Assembly (NCBI GenBank): GCA_963920765.1
Contig: OY987245.1
Location: 10,618,727 to 10,682,726 of the forward strand
From: Ulota crispa
Taxonomy: Eukaryota > Streptophyta > Bryopsida > Orthotrichales > Orthotrichaceae
DNA: 64,000 nucleotides
Direction of reading: 5' to 3'
Shown here: positions 27,465 to 62,669 of the stretch, piece by piece
Position numbering within the stretch: the stretch's first letter is position 1
Layout of the letters: each line of letters begins with the position of its first letter
Made by a program: the position numbers and the translations under genes
Notes under the pieces: generated by a model
Seen by the model: only the letters and a program-made list of their open reading frames with translations
Told to the model about the DNA's origin: nothing
Databases searched by the model: none

Positions 27465-29272
27465 ATGTCGACCTCTCTTGCTTTTTCAAGGAGCTTCGTA
27501 AACCAGCGTCCTCTAGAGGGGGCATACCCCCTCAGAGGTGCCACATTTCCCAGGTGGGCTTCATGTCACGTTCCCAAGTATGCTAGAGGGGGCGCAGGAG
27601 GCCGACTGGTGGTCATCGTCGCAGAGAATGTGCAGACCAGGGAACCCCCTTCCCGGACCAAGCGGGTGATGGTGGACGTGCCCTGGAGATTGACCAAGCC
27701 TAGAGTGATACTGATTTCAGGCCCTACTGCGTAAGTGACGTTAATTCCATCTCTGCTGAACATGTTACACCGTGAAAACTAGATTCAAATGTTAACTTTG
27801 TAATTTTAGGCTTTCATTTTTACTGCGTCTAACAGCTCAGTATCCGGAGGTCCCAGCTCCCTCGGATAATGTCCAAAAAAGCCATGTCTGAAGCAACTCC
27901 TATAACACCTCTGGAAAGCAGAGAACACAAAAAGACTCTCGACACCAACCCCTCTTCCTGTCTCATTGTGATCAGAGAGGTTCCTTACCCGACAGTTGTG
28001 GTGTATTAGTATACTAATTAAACTTGCATGAAGAGAGTACTTACATACTAAGCACGTCAAGCTAACATGATATGCTTGTGTGAGGGGCGATGGGGAAATT
28101 CGGTATTCTAAGCTGCTTCTTCCCTGGAATAACAACTCCCAAAGTTTATTCCATCTCTTATTCAGAACCTGCCGCCTTGTTATCGATTGGCTGACAATGC
28201 TCAACAAACTTTTCTTTTCTCGAGAAGTAATGCAAAGTTACGTGGTTTTTCAACATGAAAATCAGCCTTTGCTTGAACTAATCATGATGCAATCATTGCT
28301 TCTAAATCTTCTTTCAGAGTGGGAAAGACCCGCCTTTCCATCGAGCTTGCCAAGTCCTTGGGAGGCGAGATCGTCAATGCCGACTCAGTGCAAGTCTACC
28401 AAGGCCTTGACATCGGAGCCGCCAAGGCAACGCTTGAGGAGCGCCGAGGCGTGCCTCACCACGTCATGGACTTGGTGCTGCCCACCGTGGACTACACCAC
28501 TGATAACTTTGTCGCCGACGCCAGAGCCGCCACCGAGCACATCCTCTCTAGGGGGCTGGTCCCTATCGTCATCGGTGGTACGGGCATCTACATGCGCTCC
28601 TTCATGCAAAACAGAGCCAAGATCACATCTCACACCTTTGATGGCGAATGCGCCATCGATGATCACCAGTGCAATGCAGATTGGGACTGGGACTACGACT
28701 TCCAGGCCTACTTTCTGTACCAGCACCGCGCAGACCTCTTTCCACGTGTTGACATCCGATGCGAGCAGATGATACCAGCTTTGCTGGAAGAGACCTCGTG
28801 GCTGCTAGACCTGGGTGTGAGACCTCGCACCAACACTGCTTCTGCTGCGATTGGATACGAAGAGGCCATGGATCTGTTGCTAGAAGCGCGCCAGGCCGAG
28901 GGGGTCATCACGGAGGAGAGGTTCTTGGAGTTCATCAGGCTGTTCATGCACAACTCCAAGGGCTTGGTGAAGAAGCAAATCGCGTGGTTTCGCAAGGATG
29001 TCAGGAGCGACGTTCGCAAGTTCAGGTGGATCCGGGCGGACCAGCCGGTGCATCTGATGGTTGACGGCTTGATCCGGGAGTACCGGAGACCTGTGGAAGA
29101 GGTGAGCAAGTTGTCAATGGGGGAGGACCTGAAGGCTGCTAGTTGGAAGGAACAGAAGCGAATGAAGCAGTACAGGCCTACAATCAAGATTTACTCGGAT
29201 GCCATGCTGGTTGCAAGTGCACTTGAGTGGATCAAGTCCACCCAAGGTGGTCGTCGATCGAAGTGCCTTTAG
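27465..29272 (+). CDS. IPT9: tRNA dimethylallyltransferase, IPT9-like, internally shortened
   Basis: This enzyme family moves an isopentenyl group from DMAPP to A37 of tRNA, a source of cis-zeatin-type cytokinin. Exons 27465-27730 and 28318-29272 join in frame to 406 residues. Residues 1 to about 75 are Arg/Ser-rich and look like an organelle transit peptide. The P-loop GPTAVGKT (86-93) is split by the intron. NADSVQVY (109-116), PHHVMDL and IGGTGIY (174-180) are intact. The C-terminal half (YDF at 215, DLFPRVDIRCEQM, AIGYEEAM, KKQIAWFRKD) resembles plant IPT9. Between IGGTGIYM and YDF only about 34 residues remain; IPT9/MiaA proteins have roughly 80 more there, including the conserved DP...ND..R..RALE block. 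The frame is open, so the gene may be expressed, but normal activity is doubtful. The assignment to IPT9 rather than other IPTs rests on the C-terminal half. Confidence 0.85.
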
Positions 29273-40446: not shown

Positions 40447-43400
40447 TCACTTCTTCAACTTGGCTTTTGTCTCCACAACCAGCACCTCAGAACCCAAGTC
40501 AAACATCCGCTCCAACGCTTGCATGTTCTCGATGGTCTCACCCACGGTCTTAGAGTCCGTTCCGTCCGACCTCAGGTGCTGCATGGGTCCATGCAGCAAC
40601 TTGTTCACGATGCCTCTACTTAAATCCTCAAGAGCACGTTTCTGTTTCGTTGTCAAGTCCTCGGGCATTTTGCTCAAACACTTCTCCAGCTCCGATTGCC
40701 GCACACGCTCCGCGTACGACCGCAGTTTCTTGATGGTGGGCACGGTCTCTAACGAATCCCGCCAGGCTTCGAAGTTTTTGATTTCGTCGTCGATGATGAC
40801 TTGTGCGTCAGCAGCCTTTCGTCGCCGGTCTTCCTTGTTCGCTGCTACCACCTCTTTCAAATCGTCCACGTTGTACACACGCGTGCTTGGCAAATCTGAC
40901 AGGCACGCTGCCACATTCCTCGGTACTGCAATGTCTATGAAGTGCCTCACTCCTCCGCTTGTCTGTCATCCATTCCAGGTAAAGAGTCAGACTCCAAAAT
41001 CACAAACATCTGCACAAACCCTATAAGAAAAACGCAATATTCGTTAGTTTAAGAAAAATCCTGATTTTTGGACTTTTAAAGTTTTAAGAGATTTTAGGTG
41101 ATTTAGAATGAATAGTATGATGGTTTTTTTCAAGACCTTACATCAATGATAAAATATCTTGAAGGGGTTATCAAAAAACTCACTTCAAATCACCGAAATA
41201 TTCTCACAAATGCAAATTCTAATATCTTCAAAATCCGTTTTGGGAGAGTTTTTTCCAGTTTAAAAGAAATATCGTGTTTAATATTACTGTTTGAAGAAAA
41301 GTAGGCATGGCTCCACATAGTCCAACTTCTATTGACAAGAGCCTCACCTGAGAGGCAGGGGAGAGGTTCTCCACATTCTCCTTCATGAACAAAGGAATCT
41401 CGGAGGATGTACTGGTAAACACGAGATCTGCTTCGCCGACGCACCGCAGCATTTCGGACAAAGGCTCATAAACCAGCTTGGCATCCATGAACTCATTCTG
41501 CAGATCCAAGACTCGGGGTTCCGACCTGTTCACAATTATCATGCGCGTGCACCCTTTGGAAATCAAGTGCTTCACCAGCAGCTTGGACATTTTTCCAGCG
41601 CCCACGATCAACACGTTCACGCGGGACACACCTCCAACTGGGAGCTTCATGACGGCCAACTCCACTGCGGCCGAGCTCACCGAGACGGCTCCGGCGGAGA
41701 TGTTGGTCTCTGTTCTTACTCGCTTCCCTGCCGTAATGGCTTGCTTGTACAGACCCGTGAGGTTGCGTCCAAATCCGGACACTTCTTGCCCCACCTTCAG
41801 CACTTGCTTCACCTGCACATCGTGAACGCACAGCCCTGTAAATTGCTGCTAAAACCTGGATAGTAAATTACTCCTATGCCAGCTATTGAGTAGGGCACAT
41901 GACAAGCTTCATTTTCTTCAATTTTTTCTCATGTATTGTTCAGCACATATTATGTTTCTCACTGCTTCTGTTGATATAAAACTCCTCCCTTATCTCTCTA
42001 CTTTTCACAGTACACACTAGAAGAGCGATCAAAAAGCATGGTTCAATTATCAGATTATCCTTTCCATGAAATCCTGGATAAAGAGGCACTTCGAGAACAC
42101 GGGAAAGGAATTACGTGAATCCTTCTCTTTCTCAATCGCAAAAATGCGTCATGTAGTAGTGAAAGTTGCACTTGAAGGCTATGAGTAATTGGATCAACTT
42201 TTTTTAAACCGGGAAATTTTGGTCTCTTAGGGTCGAACTAACAAGGCAAGGGAAGTCAAGTCATGCGATTCAACTTGCTATGATAATAACACAAGTGATT
42301 ATCAACTCATTGCTGTTATTAGGATAATACAGATTCCATGGCAGAGTGCTGCTTAGAAAGTCCCACCTGCGCAAGAATCTGGCCTTCACCAAGAACCAAG
42401 GAGTCCAATCCTGAAGCCACTCTGAACAAATGCTGTGTCGCATCTTGATCACGCAAGATAAATAGATGCTCCATCAAGTCCTCCACTGATATACCACTCG
42501 TCTGCAACCCGCAAATCCAAAATTCAGCAATCAGAGTCAAAACATAAAAATAACATCAGAAAAAATCGCATTAAGCATATATAAGTAGAGACGATGTCAG
42601 AGCTTCCAGTAACATAAAACTGGGAGAAAGTCCAAAATTTTGCAAAGTAAACAAAGAGAAAATAGTCACCTTCGACATCCATTCAGTGACTTCTTTGACA
42701 CCTCTGTTCCACGACACAGCCACCACGTAAATCTCGAACCGATTACACGTACTAAGAACACCAGCTTCCTCAATGTGATTCTGACCGGTGAGCTCATCAA
42801 TAGCGCGAGGCCACTCTGCTTCAGGTACAGCCAGTTTCTCTCGCATCTCCACAGGTGTAGTGTGGATACTTAATCCCAGTACCATGATGCTGCTCTTCAC
42901 TTTAGTGTAACCTGCTCACAAATCCTCTCAACTGGTCAAAAACACACTCGTCATCATTATCTACCCTAGCCTTATACTTCACTAAAAAGCTCCAAACTTA
43001 AATTTTCAAATTCACTGTGATCACATATGCAATCTCATCCACAAGCTATACCACGTCAGTTCCAGCGCCTTCAACACTATTTCTAACAAAATCCTGAAAT
43101 GCTTCCAACTAAAGACTTCCAAACCGCCATCCATGAAGCCGAGCACCACAATGGAGGTAACCTTTGACTAGTTAGTGTTCACCAGGGTAAGCGAACGGCA
43201 ATACTAGAAGCCTATTAACTCCAATTGGCATCAAGTACGGAAGTGATTCATTTATCTACCAGGCTAAAACTATATCAAGCCAAGCACGCAGCTCTACTTT
43301 ATCATTGTCAGGATTCCACTCAACAACATCACTAAAATATCTCAAGCGTGCCAAAAATTCTATCAGCCAAAACTTCCAACTGATTAAGAATCATAAACTT

Positions 43401-48590: not shown

Positions 48591-50585
48591 TTTTGATACT
48601 TTGACTTTAGAATCTTGGTTGCAAATATTACTAATGTAGTTGAACCAAGTTACTTCTCTATAAGGCTTGATAACAATTAAATGAGTGCATGCTAGTAAAA
48701 CTTTCTTGAACCACCTTGTTGGTACTTGATTGAGACTTTTAATAATAATACACCGTAAACTCCACTATATATGGCAAGATACTATATGACACACATAGTG
48801 GTTCCTATATCCTATATAAGTAAGTCAAAAAGTATCACATAAGTTGAAACGTAGATTACACAATCTACTTTAAAAAGGTCATGAGGTATTCTTACATACT
48901 TTTCTAATACAATTATGGCAACTTTCCCACAATAGCTTGACTATGCATTATATTTTTTAGGTATATGTGCATAAGGGCTTGAAAGTTTTTTTTTGGTACT
49001 CTTATATATATCTCCTATATATGTTCTACTCTTCCAAAAAATATGCTTTCTTTAAATAAATACTTGAAATGGGAATGAATTAAGCTGAGTATATTTGCAA
49101 ATCTTGGACTAATTGCAACAATTACAGTAAGATTGGGATCATACAGTCTAACAAGCTGATTTACTACATGTACCTCTAACTTCCTCTTAAAGGATGACGT
49201 GGCACTCTAATACTAGCTACTTTGAGTTATGAAGCAAGAGCTCTTTTACGATTGGTAAGCTGGCAGGATAATCCAATCGCTTTTTTTAAAAAATTAGCGG
49301 GACACGGCACTTGATCTAGCTCCGATTGTCACTCTTCTCTCTCATGCTAGTTCTCATTCTGCTTGCTTGCTTGCTCAGATCTCATGTTCAATCTTAGACT
49401 TGATCCACGTTGCTTATTACCAACATACTTGAATACAACCTTTCCGTATACACTATTGCTCCAGTATTACTAGCAGCATTGCACAAGAGCGCAGGGTCAT
49501 TGTTCACGCAAGCATGGCCTCATCACAGAATACTACACAAGTTTAGTATTTTCTAGGGTTTGAGTTACTGTATTTTTTGTTGCATTGTTTCCATGTGAAG
49601 GCTATAACATGTGTCAAGGGTTGAAGACACCTTGTGCTTCCTCACTCAACTAACATTGGATTGTTGGGTTGTTTGGAATGGGTACAAGTGAGGCCCTTGA
49701 CCTCTTAGTGATCATGCCAACTACAAATACTTTCAACTCTACCTCATTCAACTCTTTTTTGCAACAAAAACAAGTTCTCTAATCTTAGTAAAATCTCTTA
49801 GTACCATTGCTTTGTTTTGTTTTGACTGGCCAAAAAAATAGCCTGCTTATAAACAACTAAGGCAGGTATATGAACGGATATGAGTAGCTTTCTTACATGC
49901 ATATAATACAAGAGTGGATGCTTGCTCAAAACAAGCCTATTAGCTGGCTGATACTACTGTTGCTACTATTTTATTATATGTAAACTTTATTATGCTTAAA
50001 AGCAATAAGACAAATCTAGGCTTTTGTTTTCTACACTACATGCTTAATGCATGAAACACTGGCTATTTCGGAGTAAAATCTGACTATTGCTGTATTGCTT
50101 TTTTTATATTGAAATACTAGCACAACTCTGAATAAAGCTCGTTGCATGGCTCTAATACTTGATCTGTATGCTTCAAGTACCAGCATGTTTTGGAAAGAAA
50201 AGTCATGGTCAGAATATGAAAAAGTTTAGACAAGCGCCCAAAAATGGGCTTTACCAAAAAATGCCTTTATTCTTTTGCAAGTTACCTCTTTTTGTCTTAG
50301 AACCTTCCTCGGAACCTAGGAGGCACTGTTGTACTCTTAGTGTGTCTTGTAAAAGAGACATAAAATTTGTTAAAATTGCAATATAAGAAATTTCAACAAA
50401 ATTTAAGGTTTGAAATTAAAAACTTAGTTTTTTTTGCTAAAAATCAATTAAAATGACCTTTGATAGAAAAAAATTTCAAATTTATCATTTTGCTATTAAG
50501 TTGATTTGAGAATAATGTTGGATTAAGCAATTCAAATCTAATGAACAAAAATTTGCCTTAAATAATTTGTTGTATTTATGTTACT

Positions 50586-51190
50586 TTATTTGGAAACTGA
50601 AAAGGTAGCCCTTGCACATGTTAAAATATGTAAATCTTATTTGAAAATACTTGACAGCTATTTGCAATATTACAAGTTGCAATGTGAGCTTGAGCTACTC
50701 TACTCAAAACTTAGAATGGTAGAGCATTCACAATTGAAGAAATGTAAATTTTATTTTAAAGCATTTGACAATGTTCTTCAAGATACCACAAATTAAGATG
50801 TGGGTTTTAGCTACTCTATTTGGAACATGGGAAGATAGAACATGCACAATTAAAGAAATGTAAATCTTATTTTAAAGCATTTGGCAATGCCCTTTGCAAT
50901 ATTACAAGTTGCAATGTGAGCTTGAGTTGTCTTATTTGGAACTTGGAAAGGTAGAACATGCACTATAGAAGAAATGTAAACTCTATTTTAAAGCATTTGA
51001 CAATGACTTTTTTAATATTACAAATTGCAATGTGGGCTTTAGTTGTTTTATTTAGAAGCTGGGAATGTAAAAAATGCACATGTAAAAATATTCAAATTCA
51101 ATATTAAAGCATTTGATGCAATCTTTTGAAATATTATAAATTGCAATGTGGATTGTGTTGCCCTATTTAGAACATGAGAAGGTGGAACAT
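50586..51190. repeat. Five tandem units of 115-116 bp
   Basis: Units start with (T/C)TATTTGGAAC at 50586, 50701, 50816, 50932 and 51048, a sixth beginning at 51163. Shared blocks are TAGAACATGCACAAT, AAAGCATTTGACAATG and AATATTACAAGTTGCAATGTG. Confidence 0.85.
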
Positions 51191-52257
51191 TCTTGTATTT
51201 GATCTTCTTTCTTTGAAAAAGTGGAAATCTATGAAATTTTATATCCTCTAGTTTTCAAGTACTTTGCCTTGATTATTTATTATAACGTATCATTATAAAC
51301 ATATCAGCATCATATTTATTGTCCTCCTTTCATCTACATTCATCCATATAATTTTTCATTCATTCAATATGATTCTTCATTTGTTTTTTTCAATGGATGA
51401 TTTTCATACAACGTCAAAATAATAATTCATGTAATGACTATTTTTGCATATTTACAATTGTATGAAGTCCATTAAATTATCATTTTCAACTTCCAAATTC
51501 TCAAGAATTTTTGCTCACCGCTCAACGCTCACACTTTAGCACCCCTGGTCTAGGTAGATACATTAAACTCCAAAAAAATTGTACTTTTTCAAATCATAAA
51601 AATGTCTTACAAGCAAAAGCTAGAATAGCAAAAGCTAAGGTAATAGTCTCGATATGATTCTCAAAACAACTAAATTGTAAAACATGACATATATATCAAA
51701 TCCATAAAGTTCAATCCTTGACAATACTTCTCAATGTTTGTTGTTCAATTCAAAAATATTTGGGATTTGCTATTTGGATGGGATAATAGCTACTCTACAG
51801 TTTGTTGTGTAAATAGATATCGCTAAACACAACACATTGTGTATTATCACTAATAGCAGATAAAAACAAAAATGTAACCTAAAAACATATATACAAATAT
51901 GCTCTCAATTGCCCCCCTAGTTGGCTAATAGAGACCTGCGAGTCAATTAGGACTATATAAAAGTATAGCTAGATCTAAATGCGAAGATGAATATAAGTCC
52001 TCAACATTTATCCACACCAAAGGTGATGTCATTGGTGGCCGATAATGACAAGTAATATGATGAAATGAACGTATAAAAAATTGTAGACCGGGTGTAATGA
52101 TGAGCTCCATCGTTAATCGCCTTTGGCAGTTTTTTAGTGCCAATCTCTTATTCAATCTTCTATTAATCCAATCTTGTGCACTGTTTATTTGACGTCTAGT
52201 CAACAAAGGCGGCAATGCTGTCATCTTGAACATAAGAGGTTTGACCTCAAGAGATTA

Positions 52258-52461
52258 TTAGCGCTTGTTTGGAAACGTAGCATGGCATGAAGATCTCCTA
52301 CAACAAGAACAAATCCAAGCTCCTAGAGGCAGAGTTAACAAAGGCGGAATTAAGCATGCCATATGCCAACCACGTTGGCACTGGTTACACAAAAGCATAG
52401 TAGCCGCGCATTTCTTCTCTCCACAAACATAACAAGGTAAACCCTTTGGCACCACTGCCAA
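52258..52461 (-). pseudogene. PHD finger at the C-terminus of gypsy pol
   Basis: The Cys4-His-Cys3 pattern of a PHD finger is readable: CYVC, MLLCNQCQRGWHMACL and WICSCC, all eight zinc ligands in place. PHD fingers bind histone H3 tails. The same frame upstream carries a NCAPC motif, but one TAG stop separates the two, so the finger is no longer joined to pol unless read through. In chromoviruses a chromodomain takes this place after integrase. Confidence 0.8.
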
Positions 52462-52728
52462 CTCCGGCTACACAATACCATCAATGGGCAAGTGACAAGG
52501 GGCACAATTTCTGGAATGCTCTCTGCACTCTCGCCCATCTTTGCCTTCCAACAATATAATGCCACTAGGCAAGATGTTCTTCACGCAAAGAATGATACAT
52601 CTTGCTCTGACATCCAATGTGGTAGGCGCCTCACGCTACAAATACACATAATCTCTTTGAGAGAACCTTCGCAGCTGAGGTCAGTAAGCGCCGCTACGAA
52701 TGCAGGCATAAAGCAAAGAATTTTGATG

Positions 52729-53607
52729 CTAGGCTATGTGTAAGTTCTCCAAAACCATAGGCATGGCCTTCCTGAAGAATTCAGCTCGATCATGTAAATA
52801 TGAAGCCCAAACATCTGGACTATCCAAGTCTACAACTGAAGCCAGCTTCTCTTGCATGGAGCTAGATAAAATAGGCTCCCTTTCATAGAGCAACTGGTAA
52901 GGGCTGTAAAAGACCAAAAAAGCCTGCCTACTAAAACGAAAACCCATGGTAATCCATGGTAATGTCAAGTCTCAATCTTGATGGTTTCTACGAAGCAATC
53001 CATACTTGCATAAGCCACGTTTGATTGTTTGAACAACATGTTTAGCCAAACCATCCGCCTCTAGGTGATTTCTAGAGTTGGTGCAATGATCAATCAAAAC
53101 CTTGGTGCATAGAGTCTCAAAAGCCCCTAGAAACTCTCGGCCTTGATCTGTCAAGACTTCAGCCAGTGTTCTAAAGCATGCCAATATTTGGTTAAAAAAT
53201 TCCATAGCTGCCAACTCTGAACAGTTCTGAGGCAAAGCAACCAGCTCAATCCATTTGCTGAAATGTTCTACCATCACCAATACGTATTTGGCTCTACGTG
53301 GGATGATAACAAGTGGCCTGACAAAGTCCAAAGACCAACAATAATCTAAGCCCATGATAGGTAAATGTCTTAACTATAGCAATAAGGTGTTAAGATTTGA
53401 TCTCACTTGATTACACACTTTACACCGTGAAACATAGGTGGAAACTTGTTGATACATGCCAGTCCACCAATACTGATTGCGCAACATAGAATGCGTCCTA
53501 CGCACTCTAACATAACCAAGCTCTTCATGCACTTGTTGTATCAAAGAAGTTTTTTGGTCCAACCGAAAAACTATGCGCCTAGCTCCATCTGGCCAAATTT
53601 GAATCAA
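52729..53607 (-). pseudogene. Gypsy integrase, broken
   Basis: The HHCC zinc domain is seen in 53607-53374 (HEELGYVRVRRTH, then CKVC). The core lies in 53355-52972: first Asp in WSLDFV, second in LTDQGREF. The position of the catalytic Glu (ADGLAK...) carries Lys, so the DDE triad is lost. The C-terminal part (52968-52729, YSPYQLLYEREP) follows after a break. Stops separate the three pieces. Confidence 0.85.
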
Positions 53608-53939
53608 TAAGCCATTATCCCAAAGGAACTTTACTATTCAATGGTAAACTTTGTCTTGCTCTATGATAGAAATATCCATAAAAAATGATCCATGCTAAAG
53701 TTTGTGCAACACCACTGTGTTTTTCTATACATTTTCAATATCCTGAGACTTATCAAGCTTATCATCCAAACTTAGATTAGACGCCTCAGTAGCAGAGCTT
53801 GACATCAAAGTCAAATAAGCAATTGCATGCTAGCCTAGAACTGCTTCCTTGTGGCAATCTCCATGCCATCTAGTACCAGTCAAATCCTCATCAGATGGAC
53901 TTGGATTGCAAAAAAACCCATCCACATCCAAGTTAGTGA

Positions 53940-54250
53940 TACCAGCTCGATGAACAACCTCAAAGTCATACTTTTGAAGCAATAAAGCTCATCTAGCAAG
54001 CTTGCTGGTGAGTTTATTTGACTCTATAAGCCACTTCAAAGGTTGATAATCTATCACCAATGTGAACCGCTACCCATAGAAGTAAAGCCACAAATATAAA
54101 ATGGCCACACCGCAGCTAAAGTTTTTCCCTCATAAAACAAGTAGTCGGACTCTACCAAGTTGTTACTCCTTGAAGCAAAAGCAATAACATACTCCCGTCT
54201 TGCATCATTTTTTTGAGTCAAATTGCATCTAACCCCACTGCATTCCAATT
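53940..54250 (-). pseudogene. Gypsy RNase H, broken
   Basis: Recognisable parts are FASRSNN, YEGKTLAAVW (catalytic Glu) and, in another frame, DYQPLKWLIESNKLT, where the usual TDHQPL reads IDYQPL. Frameshifts and stops break the domain. It links reverse transcriptase to integrase. Confidence 0.75.
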
Positions 54251-54658
54251 CGTGTGCAGTTGGAAAAGCCTAATAACATCAGAACGTCAAAGTACAAGTG
54301 CTGAGCCCAACTTTTACTTCAACATATCAAAAGCCAACTGCTGCTTACGGCTCTATGTCAAAATCTAGTCTTTGCCAGTCAGCATAGTAAAAGGCTTGGC
54401 AATTAAGCTGAAGTTCTTGACAAAGCGGCGATAATAATTTGCTAAGCCAAGAAATACACGCAACCTTGGAACATCACAAGATGTTGGAAGCTTCTAAAGA
54501 GCATCCACCTATGCCTGCTGTACGCCAAGTCCGCCTAAAACTATCATGTGTCATAAATACAACAACCGGTTATGGAAGAATTTGCACTTACCATGACGCA
54601 AGCGCAATCCTCACTCACGCAATCGCTCAAAAACGGCTTGCAAACGCTTCACATACTC

Positions 54659-55093
54659 TTAATATGAATTACTAAAGACAATAACATCATCAATAAAGCA
54701 CAGAGCAAAAAGCAATCCAGTCAAAATACGGTCCATCACCTTTTGAAACTCAACAGGTGCGCTTTTAAAACCAAATGGAAGAAACTTCCAATGATAGAGT
54801 AGATCTCTGCCATCATGATCCACTCCCCAAAATGTAGTCTTTACACGGTCTTCCAACTGTAGTGGCAACTAGTAATATCCAGATCTCAAATCTAATGTGC
54901 TAAAAATTCAAGCCGATCCCACTGCATCAAATAACTCTTCTGGTGTCGGCATATGATAACGATCTGTTTTAATCTTTTTATTGATCAGACGGTAATCTCT
55001 ACACATCCTCTTCTCAGTCCAATTTCCAAAGATATTCTTTTTAAAAGGCATCATCGTAGCACAAGCATACTCGCCATTCAATAACTGAATCAA
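54659..55093 (-). pseudogene. Gypsy reverse transcriptase, broken
   Basis: Visible motifs in order: CRDYRLINKK, FSTLDLRSGYY (motif A with its Asp), FGFKSAPVEFQKVMDRI (motif B) and FIDDVIVFS (motif C, first position Phe instead of Tyr). In-frame stops lie between the first block and motif A and right after GYY. The finger and palm order is as in Ty3/gypsy enzymes. Confidence 0.88.
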
Positions 55094-55649
55094 ACCTATA
55101 GCTAAAAGCTCCTGACATCGGACTTGAACACTTGTACTCTTAGAACTATTCAGCTTGTAAAGACGTTTGAAGATTGGGTGATCATCCTCAAGTTAAATGT
55201 AAATAGGTTTGCCTTTATAACACTCCAAATCATGAAGGTTAAAAGCAAATCAACTCCGGTACAAGTGAATGAATGCTTGCACCCCATGTGCCTCAACATC
55301 TATGAGATAATAACCTAAATTTAAAAGCCAATCATCAAACTCCGTGGTAGTCTTCTCTATCAAATAACCACCACTAGATATGAAAACAATCTATAATTGC
55401 TAATCAGAAGATGGATGGACAATATCATTGTCCCTAGCATCACCATATAAGGCTAAAGTAGTAAAGGTTTTTTAAACTTGAAGCTCATCTACAGCTTGCC
55501 ACTGAAAATGAAAATGATGCTCAGAATCCTCTCCAACTGTAGCAATTGGCATTTTTGTTGCTTGCTATTTATTGTCTTTTGTTCCCAGAGTGAATAAATT
55601 GTCATTTTGCTGCTAAATAGCAAGGCAAATGCCAACAATCCAAACCATA

Positions 55650-56600
55650 TTTAGAAGATTCATAGCTTAACCCAATACAAAGCGTTGTTGACCTTCATTG
55701 AGATCATGAGTTGCTGTAGTGCCGATAGAAAAATCCATGGCACGCTCTTGCTCATCCGCATTGGATTTCTCATAAGTGCAACTGTAAAAATTCCATACCA
55801 TGCCAGGTCCACGTGCTCGAAATGCAAAGGACTTAGGATATGTAAAAAATGTCGGTAATGCTTCACAAAGCTTTCCAACATTGTTAACCAATACAAAAGA
55901 AAGTGAATCATCTTCAGTCACAGCCAAAGGTTCTATGTGGTCATCTAAAATGACCTTTACCACACGTCTTAGAGGTATAATAACTTGTAAAAATGCCTTG
56001 GCCAACATGGAATATGACATCATGTTGATTCAAAGCCAACGTGGTCGATGGGCAAATGACTCTAATGCAGCGGCATCCACAAATGTTGGAAGGCCAAAAA
56101 TTTGGCAAATATAATGGTCATCTTCCATCATTTTTGGCCGATCATCGTCCAATGAAGATACATTCTCTAAAATATACCCAAGTGAAGTGGTTTGATAATT
56201 ATACCACCACTGTATAATTCTCACCAATTCCATAAAAATGTTAGATCTTGGGTCATCTAATCCTTAACTTGTACCTGCTTATAAGTGACCTTAACAATGC
56301 CATCTTGCCAAAAGCAAATCAACGTGGCTTAATTTCTTCAAATCTTAATTACTGATAAGGGTAACATTTCTAGGAAGGTGACCAAAATATCCATGAATGG
56401 ATGATAGAGGCAACTGCTCAGAAAACTGAACCATCAACTTCTATAGATGTAGTCGGGCTGCTCTGGTAAGCACATAACTATCATCAATATGAATATACCG
56501 CTGAACCATAAGTCCAACCTCTAAAATGGCTACCAATCCGTTACCAATATTTCCAAAAAACTCTAGAAACGTAATCTTGTCTAGGAACGGACGCCAATGA
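55650..56600 (-). pseudogene. C5-cytosine DNA methyltransferase domain inside gypsy pol
   Basis: Between protease and reverse transcriptase lies a domain with C5-methyltransferase motifs in order. Motif I is LEFFGNIGNGL at 56566-56537, followed by an acidic stretch (HIDDS) as for motif II. The motif IV catalytic Cys codon is at 56296-56294, but the preceding Pro is His and the next codon is a stop. Motif VI ENV is at 56167-56159. A motif VIII-like R-x-R (HRPRW) lies near 56045. The C-terminal block has RAMDFSIGTT and a QRFVLG motif X just before a stop at 55660. One reading frame with about seven stops covers the whole domain. The enzyme would have transferred methyl groups to cytosine C5; this copy cannot. 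It resembles DNMT3/DRM-type order by feel, but the subtype is not resolved. Confidence 0.75.
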
Positions 56601-57049
56601 ATAGATTATCCAAATATAGAGCTAATGGAGATAGAAGCCAAAGTTTCAAAACGTACAGCAGCTGCAATGTCCTTACATTGTCGAGATAACTCCTGACAGC
56701 TAGTCCAATATTGCAAAGTATCCTTGGAATGCTGAGGTGTAGCTACCAAAATTGGTGACTCTTGTTGGTCCTCTAAGAATGTGGCAGCAAATGCCAAAGT
56801 CTCCTTTAAAAGTAAAAGACTAAATGGAAGGCCATTCAAAGATACCAAGCATCTAAACATAGCATCAGCAGTCATAGACATAGTCAATGCTGCAAATGTC
56901 ATTGAAATCAGCTCTTTCCGGCCGTTACCAGAAGACCAACCTAGTCTAATTCGCGTCTCTTCAGTCCAATTATTCATACTGAAACCAAGAGGATAAAGCG
57001 CCTGCTGACCAACTAAAATATCATAGTTAATAGCATTAGTGATAGTGCA

Positions 57050-57472
57050 CCTCAAAAAAAACTGAGAATATATTGATCTTCCAGTTATTCAAAAAATCAG
57101 CTGTAGATGCTATTTGGTGTAACATGTAGCACGCTCCGTGCCTCCAAATGAAGTAACAATAGTAAATAGATATGATACCAACTCCTTAATAGTCAAAACA
57201 AGTTCTGCCGCCAAATGTTTGCCAATCATAACTGGCTGGATAACTGAGTTTATTATCACTCTAAGTGGAGTAGTTCAAAGACCATGCTCTCCACCACGTG
57301 AAACCACAAACACTCCATTATTGTTTACTATATAAACAATGCCTGGGTATATTGCATATTGCTCTCTAGCGGATCTTGCTAAAACATTTGCAAGATAAGC
57401 TGTTTTTGCCACTGTCGGATTGAAAAAAGCGCACCTTAGAAACACGCAAGGTGTCTTGTTGCGATCAAGCAT
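57050..57472 (-). pseudogene. Gypsy protease region, broken
   Basis: The blocks INSVIQPVMIGK, FTIVTSFGGTERATCYT and, after a break, ITNAINYDILVGQQALYPLGF (continuing at 57055-56606) form a retropepsin-like region typical of this lineage. The active-site Asp of the D-S/T-G triplet is Asn and its Gly is Val, so it is inactive. A stop (TGA near 57273) lies just before it. Confidence 0.7.
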
Positions 57473-57479
57473 TGCTGAC

Positions 57480-59100
57480 TAAAATTGTCTTTGTTTTTGA
57501 TCTTCACTCTTCAGATCTTCAGTCTTCATGTTTTAATAAAAACAATGGGAAAATCACAAATAACAAATCCTAAAAAAACTGCGACCTTCTATCAAGTGCT
57601 ACAAATGTTTGAAAGATCCAAATGCTAAGTGTAATAGCAATTTGAAAAGCTCTTCTAACCTTCTAACATTTTTTCAGATTTTAACTTAATCTAAGCTATC
57701 ATGCAAAAGTTATATGGGTTCAAAGTAGAAGCTCTTCTTCCTCCTTGCAAACAAAACACTGCCTCTATAAACCTCTATACTTTTTGTTCTACGCATCACT
57801 CATAGAAACGTGATATCAATTTAAAAACATGATACCACTGGCTACAACCCGTAAAATTTTCACTTCAAAATAAAACTTTGTCTGTAAATTCTAATCATTC
57901 AAAGTTTGGGCTTCAATTTTTTAGAAAGCACCCAAACCTCTAACTTCTACACAGTATAATTTCTTCAACAAGACTTCAAATGGAATAATAAAAAACAATT
58001 TGAAAAGCTATGACAACAAACTATCATTTCTAAAACTTTGAAAAGAAAATTTCATATTTTTCAAAAGTTGTAGCTCTTCAAAGTTTTGGCCCTCTCATAA
58101 CAAAGGGCAGTCACCTCCAATTCTTCACACATCCATAACTTTCTCTTCCAAGCTCCAAATCTCAAGTTTAAGGACTTTCTAGAGAGCTAGGTCTAAGATG
58201 AACACTGTTTTTAAATCTTGTTGCAAAATAATATAGAGATTATAAGCTACTATTTGTCAAAGTCTCACCCCTTCTTCATACTTTGGCCTTTTGACTCTAA
58301 ATTCAAACACTCATAACTTTTGCATCACAATTCTAAATCAAATTTGCAAATTCATTTTGGAAAGGTGATCACATAAAAAACTACTGTTTCAAATTTCAAT
58401 TCAAAATTATATATACACAAAAAATTCTCTCACCTCAAAGTTTTGGAATTTCTCCCCTCTTCTCACCAACATTCAAACACTAACTTTTAACAACTAAGGA
58501 ATCTTTCCTCCATAATTTTGACCCTATCTAAGCTATAGAGATGCGGCACATCAATCCATGTCCCTCTTTATCTTAACCCCACCATAGATGCTAACACCCT
58601 TTTCTTTTCACACATATTTCATTCACTTCTAAATCCTTAATATTTTTTATTTAAACAAAGGCAAAATATATGAGTCTTCCAAAACATCTAGATAAACATA
58701 CAAAAAGGATTAAATTACAAAATAAACACCACCATAAAGTGGCCACGTGCTCTTGCGAGCATATAATAGCATCAAACGCTTGTCTTCAGTCGCCAAGTCG
58801 TGGACTTGGTTGACTGGAGAAGCAGTCGTCTTTGGTCGCCCGCCGGTCCTGATTTAAATTCCATTAAACTCGTCGAGCGGTGATGACGGCTCACGGCTTG
58901 GCAACTAGTGAGGCAAGAAATTGACACAGTCAACCGGCTACCTATCCCCTGAGCTGTGCATGTGGCAAGACGGCGCAGTACACTGGACTATGGCTGCTGC
59001 GCTGTCACCAAACCATAATCCTCACCACGACCATCCCTTTTGCTGCAATTGTTGATTTATTGAAATCAACACAAATATAAATAAATAACAAGTATCTACA
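57480..59100. other. Non-coding AT-rich DNA between gag and pol
   Basis: About 1.6 kb without frames. It repeats short phrases such as CTCATAACTTT and TTCAAAGTTTTGG. The part 58740-59040 is GC-richer and different in character. It may be an insertion into the retrotransposon or an internal spacer; I cannot tell. Confidence 0.4.
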
Positions 59101-59117
59101 TGATGGAGCGATTTTCA

Positions 59118-60954
59118 TCAGAGCACCATTAGCGACGCATCTATAGAAGGATGATGCAATGTGTGACTATCCACATGCTCGCCAAATGCTACAATGGCTT
59201 TAATTGCAAACTTAGCACGTAGCTTTGCTTGAGCCTCTGAATCATGAGCTGAAGAGGTCTTGGCAATAGTTTCAAAAACTTGAAGAGATGGCATGTCCGC
59301 CTTCATTTTTAAAACACATCCCACCATGTGAAAGTTCTCAGAAGCCTAGAATCAGGTGCTATCAACTCTGAGCCAGAAAATATTGACATCTGCACATCTT
59401 TGAAACCCATGGTTTGCAAAAAATTAAGTGAGATAGAACTTCCAAGATGTGGAAGTGCAACAACTAGGCGTTTGTCCGTGGCAACAGCATCAGCCAAACC
59501 AAAAGATAATGCTAAGCGTGTCTGGCCAATGGAATCAGCTAGACCACTATGAAGTGCGCGTGAGTTAGTCATGACATCTGACACTAATGAATCAACTGAT
59601 CTTCTAATGGTCTAAAACTGGGTAGCAGCTGAAACTCCCAACTCTCCAGATGCACCAAAAATGTAATGCTGAGAGCTAAAATAATCAGCTATCTTCTTTA
59701 GAGATGTCCTATAGTTAGAAGCTTGAGCCAATGATACAGAAGTTTTGAGCTTTTGCTCCAACTCTGCTACCTTGGCCTCAAGGATTTTCTTCTTTTGTAT
59801 CTTAGCAACCACAAAACTGACTGGCTTTATCTCATGATGAAGTTGAAAGCAGTGGTCCTCATCAAGGTTAGTATCACCACAATAGTTACACTTTAAAACT
59901 TTTTTCTTGGCGTTAGCTTCACCCTTCACCTCTTCATTCTTACTAGCCTTGGATGGCTAAGAAGGAGTCTTGGGTTTCTTTGGACCATCCTCATGGCATG
60001 TCCATCTTGCCCACATTTTCAATAATGCAAGGTTCTCTCTGACTTAGTGTCCGCCAGACTGCTAGTGACAACAAAGATCTTCCTGGATTTAGAAGAATCA
60101 GTTATAGAAGTGACCATGCCCGTGGCGTCATGATGACAAAGTGTCTAGTTATATCTTTCAAAGACAGCAAAAATTTAGATTAAAGCAGTTATACCTTCAT
60201 AATCAAAGATAATACGAGAGGATACTAAATCCAGCTGTTATTTGTTGATTTTTGATAAAAAAATCTTTACAAACTGACTCTCAGTGAAAATTCCACCAGA
60301 CTTGACAGCAAACCGTGCCAAACGAGTGTACATGATACGTAGCATATTATTCTTCTTTTTCCAAAAGTCTTAAATATGCTGCATCTGATCACAACGAAAT
60401 ATAACATATTTCACCTCCAAATGCTCAATAAATTGCGCTAGTGAAACAAACTGAGGTGGGAGACGAACTGTGGCCAGTGTTGTCTGATTAGCTTGAGTCA
60501 TGCGCGACATGATGGGTGAAATGGCACTCTCTGTCCTTAATCTCAGAGCCATCGCTTTGCCCTTAGGATCCTCAAAGGCCGATCCATCACCCTCGCTAGG
60601 TTTCTCCTCTACCTTCACAGATGAGGAGGCAAAAGCAGATACCGCGCCATCTTTGAGAGCTTAAACAAGCTCTACTTGTGTCTCTCAGTAAAGCTGCATC
60701 TCAAGAAGCTCAAGCTGATGAGCATAAGTCCAGTGCTCATAGGTTTGAAGTGCCTCATACTCCAAATCTTGAGGCAAAAGCTTAAAGGCAAACCAATCGT
60801 TGAAATTAGGCGACCTCTGGCGCTTCTCCTTCACCCATATCTGGAAGCAAAGCTTCCAATCAGGAAGGGAAATCTCCCTTACTGATTTTGAAAAACGATT
60901 ACGCACTAATTCGCAATGATTGTCGTCTATATTGTCAAACGTACCTACACTCAA
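59118..60954 (-). pseudogene. Gypsy gag with zinc-knuckle remnant, broken
   Basis: Pieces at 60954-60685, 60618-60370, then a middle part reading RLARFAVKSGGIFTESQFVK near 60300, then 59929-59118. CNYCGDTNLDEDHC is a 14-residue zinc knuckle in which the usual His is Leu. A coiled-coil-like stretch (KIQKKKILEAKVAELEQKL) follows. Stops and frameshifts separate the parts. The gag call rests on the knuckle and its position before pol. Confidence 0.65.
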
Positions 60955-60960
60955 GACTCA

Positions 60961-62300
60961 AAGCCTACTAGTATTATGCAACACCAAATCAGATTGAAAA
61001 ACTTCATTGTTATCTACCGCTGGATCAAAGTCCTTGGTGTGGTCACCCTTCAAGTAGTCTAGTGAAGGAGACTGACAATATCAACTCCTGGTTTGCACCA
61101 TAAACGGACTATCTAGATACATGTAACTATCTATAAGCTTAGGACAACCTGACTTGCAATCACCACCAAACTGTATGGTTCACCAATAATGACATCCGGT
61201 GAGCATAGGTCCAACACGTACAGAAAGGTCTCACTAGCAATCAACTCGAACTCACCCCTACAGTACGTCCATCCCCAACAAAACACATAATGAGACAATA
61301 TTTCCAAATAGGGAAGGTACCAAAAGACAAAATTCAAAATACAAATCTTGGATCCTCTTCTCCAAACAACAGATAAGTAGAAAATAAATAAAACCAACAC
61401 AATCAACACCCTCTTGCGTTTGGTGGCAAGTGGCAAAAATGAAGTGCAACACCTGCAATCCAAAGCCACTTCTCTCCAAATGCTCTTCCTGCTCTAAAGA
61501 ACCTATAGAGTTGAAGAGAAGAGTTTAGAAGAGAGAAAAGAGAAAAGAAAGAAATTAGATAGAAATGTAAGAAACTACCTAACTCAATTGCCAATTGAAT
61601 AACCTAAATCTCACCAAATCCCAAAATAAAATACACCAATGTGTTCCTTGGTTTCTTTTATCCTATTTTGGTATAAACTATGTGGGAATTGGAGTCCAAA
61701 TACCCCCACAATCAAAGCTCAAAGTTTGCACAAAAATATTGGCAATTCTCTGAAAATCCCGCATTAATGAAGATTTCAAAAATGTCCCTAGTGCCGGATT
61801 TCGGATTTCCAAATGTAGCTAAAAGGTAGATTTAGAAATTTATCATCCAAGGAGATTTAATTTAATTCCTCAACTGTGAGGGAACCCCTTTTCCACTCAA
61901 AATTTGCTTTGGCTTTGTAAATCAGAGCTCCCCATGAGAAAAAGCACAAAATGAAAAACCTCAAGTAGATGAACAATTGGGATGAAACCCTAGAGCTCTC
62001 CTGTTGCTTTGGCTTCGGGCGTCTGGCCCCGTCACTATGGGGAATTGAGACTCCTTTAACCCAGCTCCGGGCAGGAAAGAGCTCGACCCTTGAATCCAAA
62101 CGCCACACATCAGTCATTGATCCACATTGGGAGCTTTAGAAGGGAACTTGAGCTCATATCTAAGCCCAAGCACAGAAGCAACCCCCCATCAAACCCGGGT
62201 CAGATGCTAGGCCAGGTCAAAAGCCAGGTCAAAGGCCAGGTAAGATCAAAGGCCAGCCCCCGGTCCAAGGTCCCACTTTAACTCAATCCAGGCAGTGAAA
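60961..62300. other. Region upstream of gag (possible LTR/leader)
   Basis: By position this should hold the 5' LTR and leader of the minus-strand element, but I found no terminal TG...CA pair or tRNA-complementary site. A short array of GCCAGGTCAAA units lies at about 62210-62263. Frames such as 61857-62117 (minus) are not recognised. Confidence 0.35.
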
Positions 62301-62669
62301 ATGTTTTGGGTGAAGTGGCCTTAGCTTTTTTTCTAACCAAAAAATGGTTGAGTAGCAAAGATGGCTACATCTTTTTTACTGATGTAAATTTGGATGCTTA
62401 CACCTTTTATCAAAGTTAAATCTCATGATGGGTTTGTGAGAAATTAGAATATTGCTCTAGTAGAGTGAGGTGACATCAAGTGGAACTTTGAAATCCGAGC
62501 TCCTACTCCCAAACCTGTGTATAAAAGTTGGCTAAATATTTTGCATTTTTTCAAAAAATACTATAGAACAATCAACTATACCAACTTTGTTGTAGCAAAA
62601 AAACAATGATTAGCACAAAATGTTTTTCCTGGACTCTAGATTTCCAACTCCAGGGTTCTAATTCCAGCT

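Follow-up and report, generated by a model that had tools for sequence, protein, structure and literature searches.

Retrotransposons that encode a DNA methyltransferase (DNMT) occur in streptophytes and dinoflagellates (PMC12344493, available passages), and the published text accessible to us includes a statement that land plants have no such elements. The closest known system to the one described here, compared by description only, is KnitGypsy-Dnmt3 of the alga Klebsormidium nitens, which in the accessible text of de Mendoza et al. (2018; PMC5890265) combines gypsy domains with a Dnmt3 and DIRS-like repeats. An initial annotation of the DNA studied here had noted reports that cytosine methyltransferases were captured by long terminal repeat (LTR) elements in some algae and dinoflagellates, and the same accessible text does report such capture for dinoflagellates and a charophyte. 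Here we describe a 64,000-nucleotide stretch of the moss Ulota crispa (contig OY987245.1, positions 10,618,727 to 10,682,726; below, the window) that contains a decayed Ty3/gypsy element. Jointly with the whole mechanism proposed below, we consider it likely that this copy is a dead member of an old bryophyte Ty3/gypsy family carrying a DNMT3-type methyltransferase (MTase). Because host DNA methylation is a main plant means of silencing transposons, an element family that retains its own de novo type MTase calls for explanation.

The window copy lies on the minus strand. Its order of protease (PR), reverse transcriptase (RT), RNase H and integrase (IN) is that of Ty3/gypsy elements (Metaviridae), and Pfam searches of this strand matched RVT_1, Integrase_H2C2, rve and a PHD finger, the last of which had escaped the initial annotation. 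The initial annotation had placed a Ty3/gypsy retrotransposon with its own C5-cytosine MTase at 51940..60960; class and location held, while the bounds had to be moved outward to the alignable extent. One continuous frame, from 57478 down to 55670, spans the protease region and the MTase. It contains ten stops, six of them in 56605-55670, in agreement with the earlier description of this copy as dead. The MTase motifs named at that time (LEFFGNIGNGL, a motif IV Cys, ENV and R-x-R) do lie in this one frame, though degraded: motif IV reads RWHC-stop versus GWPCQ in relatives, with the catalytic Cys codon kept. The coding features are as follows.

51801..61841, minus strand: Ty3/gypsy element, decayed; extent from blastn against copies L005, L007, L012 and L015.
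59121..60618, minus strand: gag remnants in several pieces (gagA, gagZn, gagC, gagD), collinear in most of the 15 other copies; no Pfam match above cut-off.
57479..59120 (edges approximate), no strand assigned: foreign repeat splitting gag from protease, recognized by a genome search and by gagD and PRn adjoining in other copies.
56609..57478, minus strand: protease region and spacer, in the frame of the MTase, by homology to P0023; protease catalytic motif lost.
55670..56605, minus strand: C5-cytosine MTase domain, DNMT3 type, motifs I to IX/X, six stops; tblastn in 15 of 15 copies, and relatives.
56534..56566, minus strand: motif I-like LEFFGNIGNGL (relatives: LVELFAGIGTGL).
56294..56296, minus strand: motif IV catalytic Cys codon (relatives GWPCQ).
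56159..56167, minus strand: motif VI ENV.
56039..56047, minus strand: motif VIII-like R-P-R.
55394..55402, minus strand: in-frame stop TAG CAA TTA in a plant-virus type I readthrough context, conserved among copies.
54662..55093, minus strand: reverse transcriptase (RVT_1, 5.6e-9, at 54662-54868; 54911-55093 by homology to copies).
54054..54248, minus strand: putative RNase H remnant, from its position; RT_RNaseH is present in copy L003.
52975..53607, minus strand: integrase zinc-binding domain (Integrase_H2C2, 3.4e-15, 53377-53607) and rve core (3.9e-11, 52975-53355).

The foreign repeat is about 1.6 kb long, and the genome search scored about 40 other places that resemble it (82-85% identity). 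The initial annotation had expected the 55.65-56.6 kb region itself to match a C5-MTase profile, and this expectation failed: alone, the window's three MTase pieces matched no C5-MTase profile at expectation values (E) up to 1. We attribute this to decay, but it counts against the assignment, and the case therefore rests on relatives.

The 275-Mb moss genome that holds the window (G000) contains many such relatives. A 77-amino-acid piece of the domain (56033-56263, motifs VI-VIII) gave 94 matches, merged into 90 places; PF00145 matched 46 places, 33 of which lay within 1.5 kb of matches to the piece. Twenty 10-kb loci were taken, and 15 of them were element copies, selected through their MTase matches. 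All 15 carried protease, MTase and RT collinearly at nearly fixed spacing, with integrase pieces downstream in 14 and a PHD finger in 13 within the fetched stretches. An unbiased count started from RT (150 of 295 candidates scored; the 13 of 108 merged places below 44% identity counted separately; neighborhoods drawn from 96 of 109 PHD rows, the 13 weakest being omitted, and from all 94, 46 and 116 other rows). The MTase lay 0.9-2.6 kb upstream at 84 of the 95 family RT places, PHD lay downstream at 80, and both were found at 72. At the weaker RT places of other gypsy elements, neither occurred within 12 kb (0 of 13). These results support the earlier claim that a gypsy element encodes a C5-MTase of its own, placed between protease and RT.

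None of the 16 copies dissected (these 15 and the window copy) is unbroken. The longest sense open frame has 384 amino acids (locus L001), and those of the other 14 loci and the window have 137-263, so that the suggestion of living relatives in this genome found no support among them. The L001 frame matched PF00145 at 1.7e-8 and none of the solved structures at E up to 0.01. A more divergent subfamily, with RT 47-55% identical and with MTase and PHD arranged alike, as judged from coordinates, was also observed at five places of G000 (C3:26965442, C9:18719381, C5:22168839, C2:3241170 and C5:2214934), and MTase pieces of it were found in L030 and L031.

Better-preserved relatives came from other genomes and metagenomes. 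A first search returned 13 metagenome proteins (P0001-P0013) that were 46-70% identical, as well as weak bacterial matches (P0014-P0021, E 6e-4 to 9e-4); a profile search returned 168 proteins, 120 of them listed. Aspartyl protease and MTase share one open frame in P0023, P0024 and P0129, P0023 matching Asp_protease_2 above cut-off, and MTase and RT are joined in one open frame in P0062. The domain is thus kept between protease and RT in these relatives, as had been proposed. In P0121 (RNase H-MTase) and P0094 (MTase-integrase) the domain has a second location, after RNase H and before integrase. The open relatives match PF00145 above cut-off; this match together with motifs I, IV (PCQ), VI (ENV), VIII and IX/X is found in relatives and not in the window pieces. 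Among 40 relatives picked from the lists, the residues P-C-Q (motif IV), E-N (motif VI) and R (motif VIII) are kept in at least 90% of rows. All five motifs were present in 13 of 121 listed relatives by a pattern count that is crude and includes many fragments. In liverworts, the annotated Marchantia polymorpha relative MARPO_0008s0049 (P0048) has a Gag zinc knuckle (by eye), a protease region (by homology) and the MTase, and a Calypogeia fissa relative (P0032) was among the matches listed by the profile search.

Compared with solved structures, the MTase profile was closest to DNMT3A (1.8e-14), followed by DNMT3B, M.HaeIII (6.5e-7), M.HhaI (1.5e-5) and DRM (2e-5), and P0001 also matched DNMT3 structures by sequence. 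No DNMT1/CMT entry appeared among 57 solved sequences at E up to 1, on which ground that type was rejected; DRM type was rejected because the permuted motif order is absent. Judged by sequence, then, the element MTase is of DNMT3 type with unrearranged motif order (I-IV-VI-VIII-X), as in moss and animal DNMT3. The moss itself has four DNMT3-like loci, unpermuted and with motifs on separate exons (L018, L027, L028 and L029; by eye and profile), and two DRM-like loci (L016 and L017).

A tree of 39 rows contained 26 relatives, L001 and three of the four host DNMT3 loci (L018 omitted). The 27 element MTases, from mosses, liverworts and metagenomes, formed one clade with support of 97/94, even though P0121 and P0094 place the domain between RNase H and integrase. 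This clade stood beside the moss's own DNMT3 and DRM (96/91) and apart from bacterial rows; the program warned of long branches, and for that reason we are unsure of the sister position. In addition to forming a separate clade from host DNMT3 and plant DRM, the element MTases gave low profile scores against the corresponding exons of this moss (at best 11.8 bits for DNMT3 and 15.7 bits for DRM). Since the element MTase is far from all these host loci, its capture looks old, on sequence grounds, and not derived from present genes of this host.

The same data bear on whether a bacterial gene supplied the MTase, or whether it is an accident of assembly or annotation in one copy. Distant bacterial-type matches (P0014-P0021) would fit such an origin, as would P0003, which is filed as a DNA cytosine methyltransferase of Candidatus Obscuribacterales in a metagenome-assembled genome (MAG). 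Yet the domain recurs in the same place at 84 of 95 RT places, is in frame with protease in open relatives, and groups with host DNMT3/DRM and not with bacterial rows, the long-branch warning applying here too. Collinear copies, RT places, open relatives and tree together refute a bacterial gene or contamination as the source, and we regard this explanation as extremely improbable. Judged from its close relatives, P0003 is probably eukaryotic contamination of that MAG. Phage records gave no match, and no related loci were found via P0001 in viral contigs or via P0003 in GTDB genome contigs.

Selection on the domain was estimated from the ratio of nonsynonymous to synonymous substitution rates (dN/dS), with codons read as they stand, stops skipped, and pairs with saturated or zero dS or fewer than 60 codons dropped. 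Between two subgroups of copies, the median ratio was 0.22 for the MTase (30 of 44 pairs), 0.16 for RT (44 of 44), 0.12 for IN (29 of 44) and 0.35 for the protease region (38 of 44). By this measure, which is rough since dS is saturated, the MTase behaves like the core enzymes and unlike a neutral passenger, showing signs of purifying selection. A passive passenger, captured once and carried without use to the element, would sit well with the broken state of all 16 dissected copies and with the 8 of 95 RT places that have no MTase within 12 kb. It is harder to reconcile with a between-subgroup ratio near that of RT and below that of the protease region (dS saturation again qualifying the value), with catalytic motif residues kept in at least 90% of the 40 relatives, and with a single clade across mosses, liverworts and metagenomes, which implies long retention. 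We consider the passenger explanation very unlikely.

The family is laid out as one frame encoding gag-PR-MTase, a conserved stop, and then RT-RNase H-IN-PHD. The stop falls at one codon in 14 of the 16 copies (12 TAG, 2 TAA), with AAG in L003 and L014. CAA-YYA follows in all 16 (9 CCA, 5 TCA and 2 TTA), the codon after CAA varying among Ser, Pro and Leu while the YYA pattern is constant. As a control, stops made up 211 of 11,076 other codons (1.9%), and at any of 811 other columns a stop was common to at most 7 of 15 copies. The coding frame runs on across the stop into the downstream region. The C-termini of 10 of 15 relatives end at the matching residue: P0001, P0002, P0004, P0006, P0007 and P0011 end at the stop-site residue with ATK and P0012 with ATQ, and P0003, P0005 and P0022 end at the matching D of the window's subgroup. 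In tobamoviruses, UAG-CAR-YYA serves as the type I readthrough signal, and signals of this type need local sequence only, according to the available text of PMC3542737. By sequence, an in-frame signal of this kind with conserved coding downstream is what the copies contain. We infer that the MTase is made as part of the abundant product on the Gag side.

Alternatively, the stop could merely end a first open reading frame (ORF), the RT ORF being reached by re-initiation or from another transcript, with CAA-YYA a coincidence of descent. Consistent with this, the 16 copies share ancestry, AAG replaces the stop in two of them, and P0062 has no stop at all. Shared descent accounts less well for a codon after CAA that changes its amino acid and always fits YYA, for the continued frame (in L005, protease to PHD lie in a single frame), and for the identity of the context with the published type I signal (PMC3542737, as available). 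A simple ORF end is thus an unlikely explanation, and leaky termination is the reading we prefer.

The ends of the copies are built of split terminal repeats, with A (about 300-352 bp) at the 5′ end and B1, two variable bases, A2 and B2 at the 3′ end. B1-A2-B2 was seen at the 3′ end of eight copies (L002, L003, L004, L009, L011, L012, L013 and L014) and B alone in four (L005, L007, L015 and the window copy); B was not seen in the fetched stretches of L001, L006, L008 and L010. One identical full LTR at each end, as in Ty3/gypsy elements, was therefore not what we found; split direct repeats like those of DIRS/PAT elements were present in 8 of the 12 copies with visible B. The two bases between B1 and A2 are at in L004 and L012, gc in L013 and L009, gg in L014, ac in L011, tt in L002 and aa in L003, and the repeats flanking them are about 80-90% alike between copies. 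A starts with TGTCA and B ends with GACA or ACA. Genome-wide, 40 of 222 first-look candidates for A-B units were scored, and another B lay directly upstream in 27 of these 40. A purine-rich run at or a few bases before B was found in 12 of 12 copies. In the window these features are the following.

51910..51924, minus strand: purine-rich, polypurine-tract-like run, immediately upstream of repeat B.
51803..51909, minus strand: terminal repeat B (B1), from blastn and end analysis.

Neither the 5′ repeat A1 (sought by blastn alignment to other copies) nor A2-B2 was found in the window copy, and because both are missing, a search of 50,500-62,500 for an LTR pair found none.

DIRS/PAT elements are defined by a tyrosine recombinase and the lack of a target duplication. 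The moss element departs from this definition, since it has an rve integrase and short target duplications of 4 bp, as expected from a DDE integrase of Ty3/gypsy type. Among 20 insertions, eight had exact duplications and eight had duplications with one mismatch: the eight long copies contributed four exact, three with one mismatch and one without (flanks read by eye), and 12 A-B units contributed four exact, five with one mismatch and three with fewer matches. The 4-bp duplications bound the split repeats, which were therefore probably produced by the DDE integrase. This combination calls into question the link of such repeats to tyrosine recombinases.

Behind the integrase lies a PHD finger of C4HC3 type, closest to the fingers of PHF12, CHD4 and KDM5 and also matched in copies L009 (7e-11) and L002 (1.3e-8).

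52261..52461, minus strand: PHD finger, C-terminal to integrase (PF00628, 4.8e-8).
51946..52233, minus strand: conserved C-terminal tail, no Pfam match; found by tblastn in other copies.

Chromoviruses are Ty3/gypsy elements with a chromodomain, a chromatin reader C-terminal to the integrase. The moss element shares the position of a chromatin-reading domain and differs in having PHD instead of a chromodomain, plus the MTase and split repeats. A chromodomain was rejected here: Pfam searches revealed none behind the integrase, where PHD is found and the C-terminal tail is unmatched. By analogy with the chromodomains of chromoviruses, the PHD finger may steer integration; the selection test gave it little support.

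Together, these features suggest a mechanism. Ribosomes would mostly stop at UAG-CAA-YYA and so make Gag-PR-MTase in bulk, occasional readthrough would add the Pol-PHD extension, and the protease would release the parts. The MTase would travel with Gag and methylate the element's own cDNA, probably at CG, before or at integration; we infer this self-methylation from sequence features. It may disguise the element as host DNA or determine its chromatin state, while PHD on the integrase side would read histone tails and steer insertion. Retroviral-type reverse transcription would make B-A repeats, and the DDE integrase would insert a circle cut at the B|A junction. The lineage might then be a write-and-read chromatin parasite, a tentative picture whose four parts we judge, taken jointly, to be possible and not probable. 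In it, a DNMT3-like MTase would reach Gag-like abundance through a plant-virus-type leaky stop and methylate its own DNA; insertion sites would be chosen by the PHD reader on the integrase; the circle would be cut at the internal B|A junction (TGACA-nn-TGTCA) and inserted with 4-bp duplications; and joining by a DDE integrase would still leave repeats of permuted appearance (A1...B1-A2-B2).

The MTase might instead act in trans, methylating the host or competing elements or dampening its own family for host survival, and not its own cDNA. Host-directed and self-dampening roles are discussed in the accessible text of de Mendoza et al. (PMC5890265), and the Gag-side position could give much enzyme. 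On the opposing side, the ratio of observed to expected CpG gives no clear signature, since low values occur both in the 16 copies (0.34-0.53) and in the window flank (0.58). We think action in trans unlikely and favor self-methylation.

Several observations weigh against the proposed scheme. MTase activity is predicted from sequence only, and a structure predicted for P0003 with 11 relatives was too poor to use (mean predicted local distance difference test score, 43.7; predicted template modeling score, 0.41). The MTase was absent from its expected distance at 11 of 95 RT places, lying nearer or further at 3 and being missing within 12 kb at 8. Inside the main subgroup, dN/dS was 0.56 for the MTase and 0.62 for RT, IN and the protease region; between subgroups, dS reached saturation (median 2.1), and 14 of the 44 pairs for the MTase could not be used. 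PHD was the least constrained domain (0.73; 34 of 66 pairs, 64 codons), and comparison between groups gave no usable ratio for it. Judged from the sequences of the wider family, the stop is not shared by all members, since P0062 lacks it, with MTase and RT in one open frame, and the C-termini of P0013, P0023, P0024, P0025 and P0042 (5 of 15) end elsewhere. No consistent RNA structure was found near the stop in three copies.

The moss family fits the description of KnitGypsy-Dnmt3 (gypsy pol, Dnmt3 and DIRS-like repeats), the likeness being one of description. As far as the available text of PMC5890265 goes, the two share gypsy domains, an unrearranged intronless Dnmt3-type MTase within the polyprotein, terminal repeats described as DIRS-type and purifying selection on the MTase. 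They differ in host, the moss element residing in a land plant and the other in an alga, and in the PHD finger, the main text of PMC5890265 having no word that starts with PHD; the passages at hand also mention no readthrough stop or target duplication for the Klebsormidium element. SymbioDIRS-Dnmt3 of Symbiodinium, in the same available text, likewise encodes a Dnmt3-type MTase as part of its retrotransposon polyprotein; its repeats are split into A and B, and two domain orders coexist, as in the wider moss-type family. It has a tyrosine recombinase in contrast to the rve integrase and 4-bp target duplications of the moss element.

In the open-licence literature searched, mostly abstracts and passages, we found no moss, liverwort or other land-plant case of a DNMT element, no PHD in LTR elements and no readthrough in MTase-carrying elements. 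As far as we searched, four findings are new: a DNMT-carrying retroelement in land plants, contrary to the printed statement; an in-frame UAG-CAA-YYA stop, conserved downstream of the MTase and ahead of RT, which groups the MTase with Gag; a PHD finger following the integrase; and split repeats A1...B1-A2-B2 bounded by 4-bp target duplications. Mosses and liverworts both carry MTase elements, and since one annotated relative (MARPO_0008s0049) belongs to the genetic model Marchantia, a land plant is available for tests of function. Specific, testable predictions on dosage and targeting follow from the leaky stop and PHD.

Elsewhere in the window, 51,500-62,500 gave no Rfam match above the gathering score. 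Just past the 3′ end of the element, at 50575-51118, a unit of 114-116 bp occurs in five diverged tandem copies. A host tRNA isopentenyltransferase ORF occupies 28,319-29,269; its best named matches are proteins of Physcomitrium patens (71%) and Ceratodon purpureus (70%), the Sphagnum match reaching 39%, which marks the host as a moss. A Shikimate_DH/GlutR-like exon at 41231-41818 probably belongs to a glutamyl-tRNA reductase.

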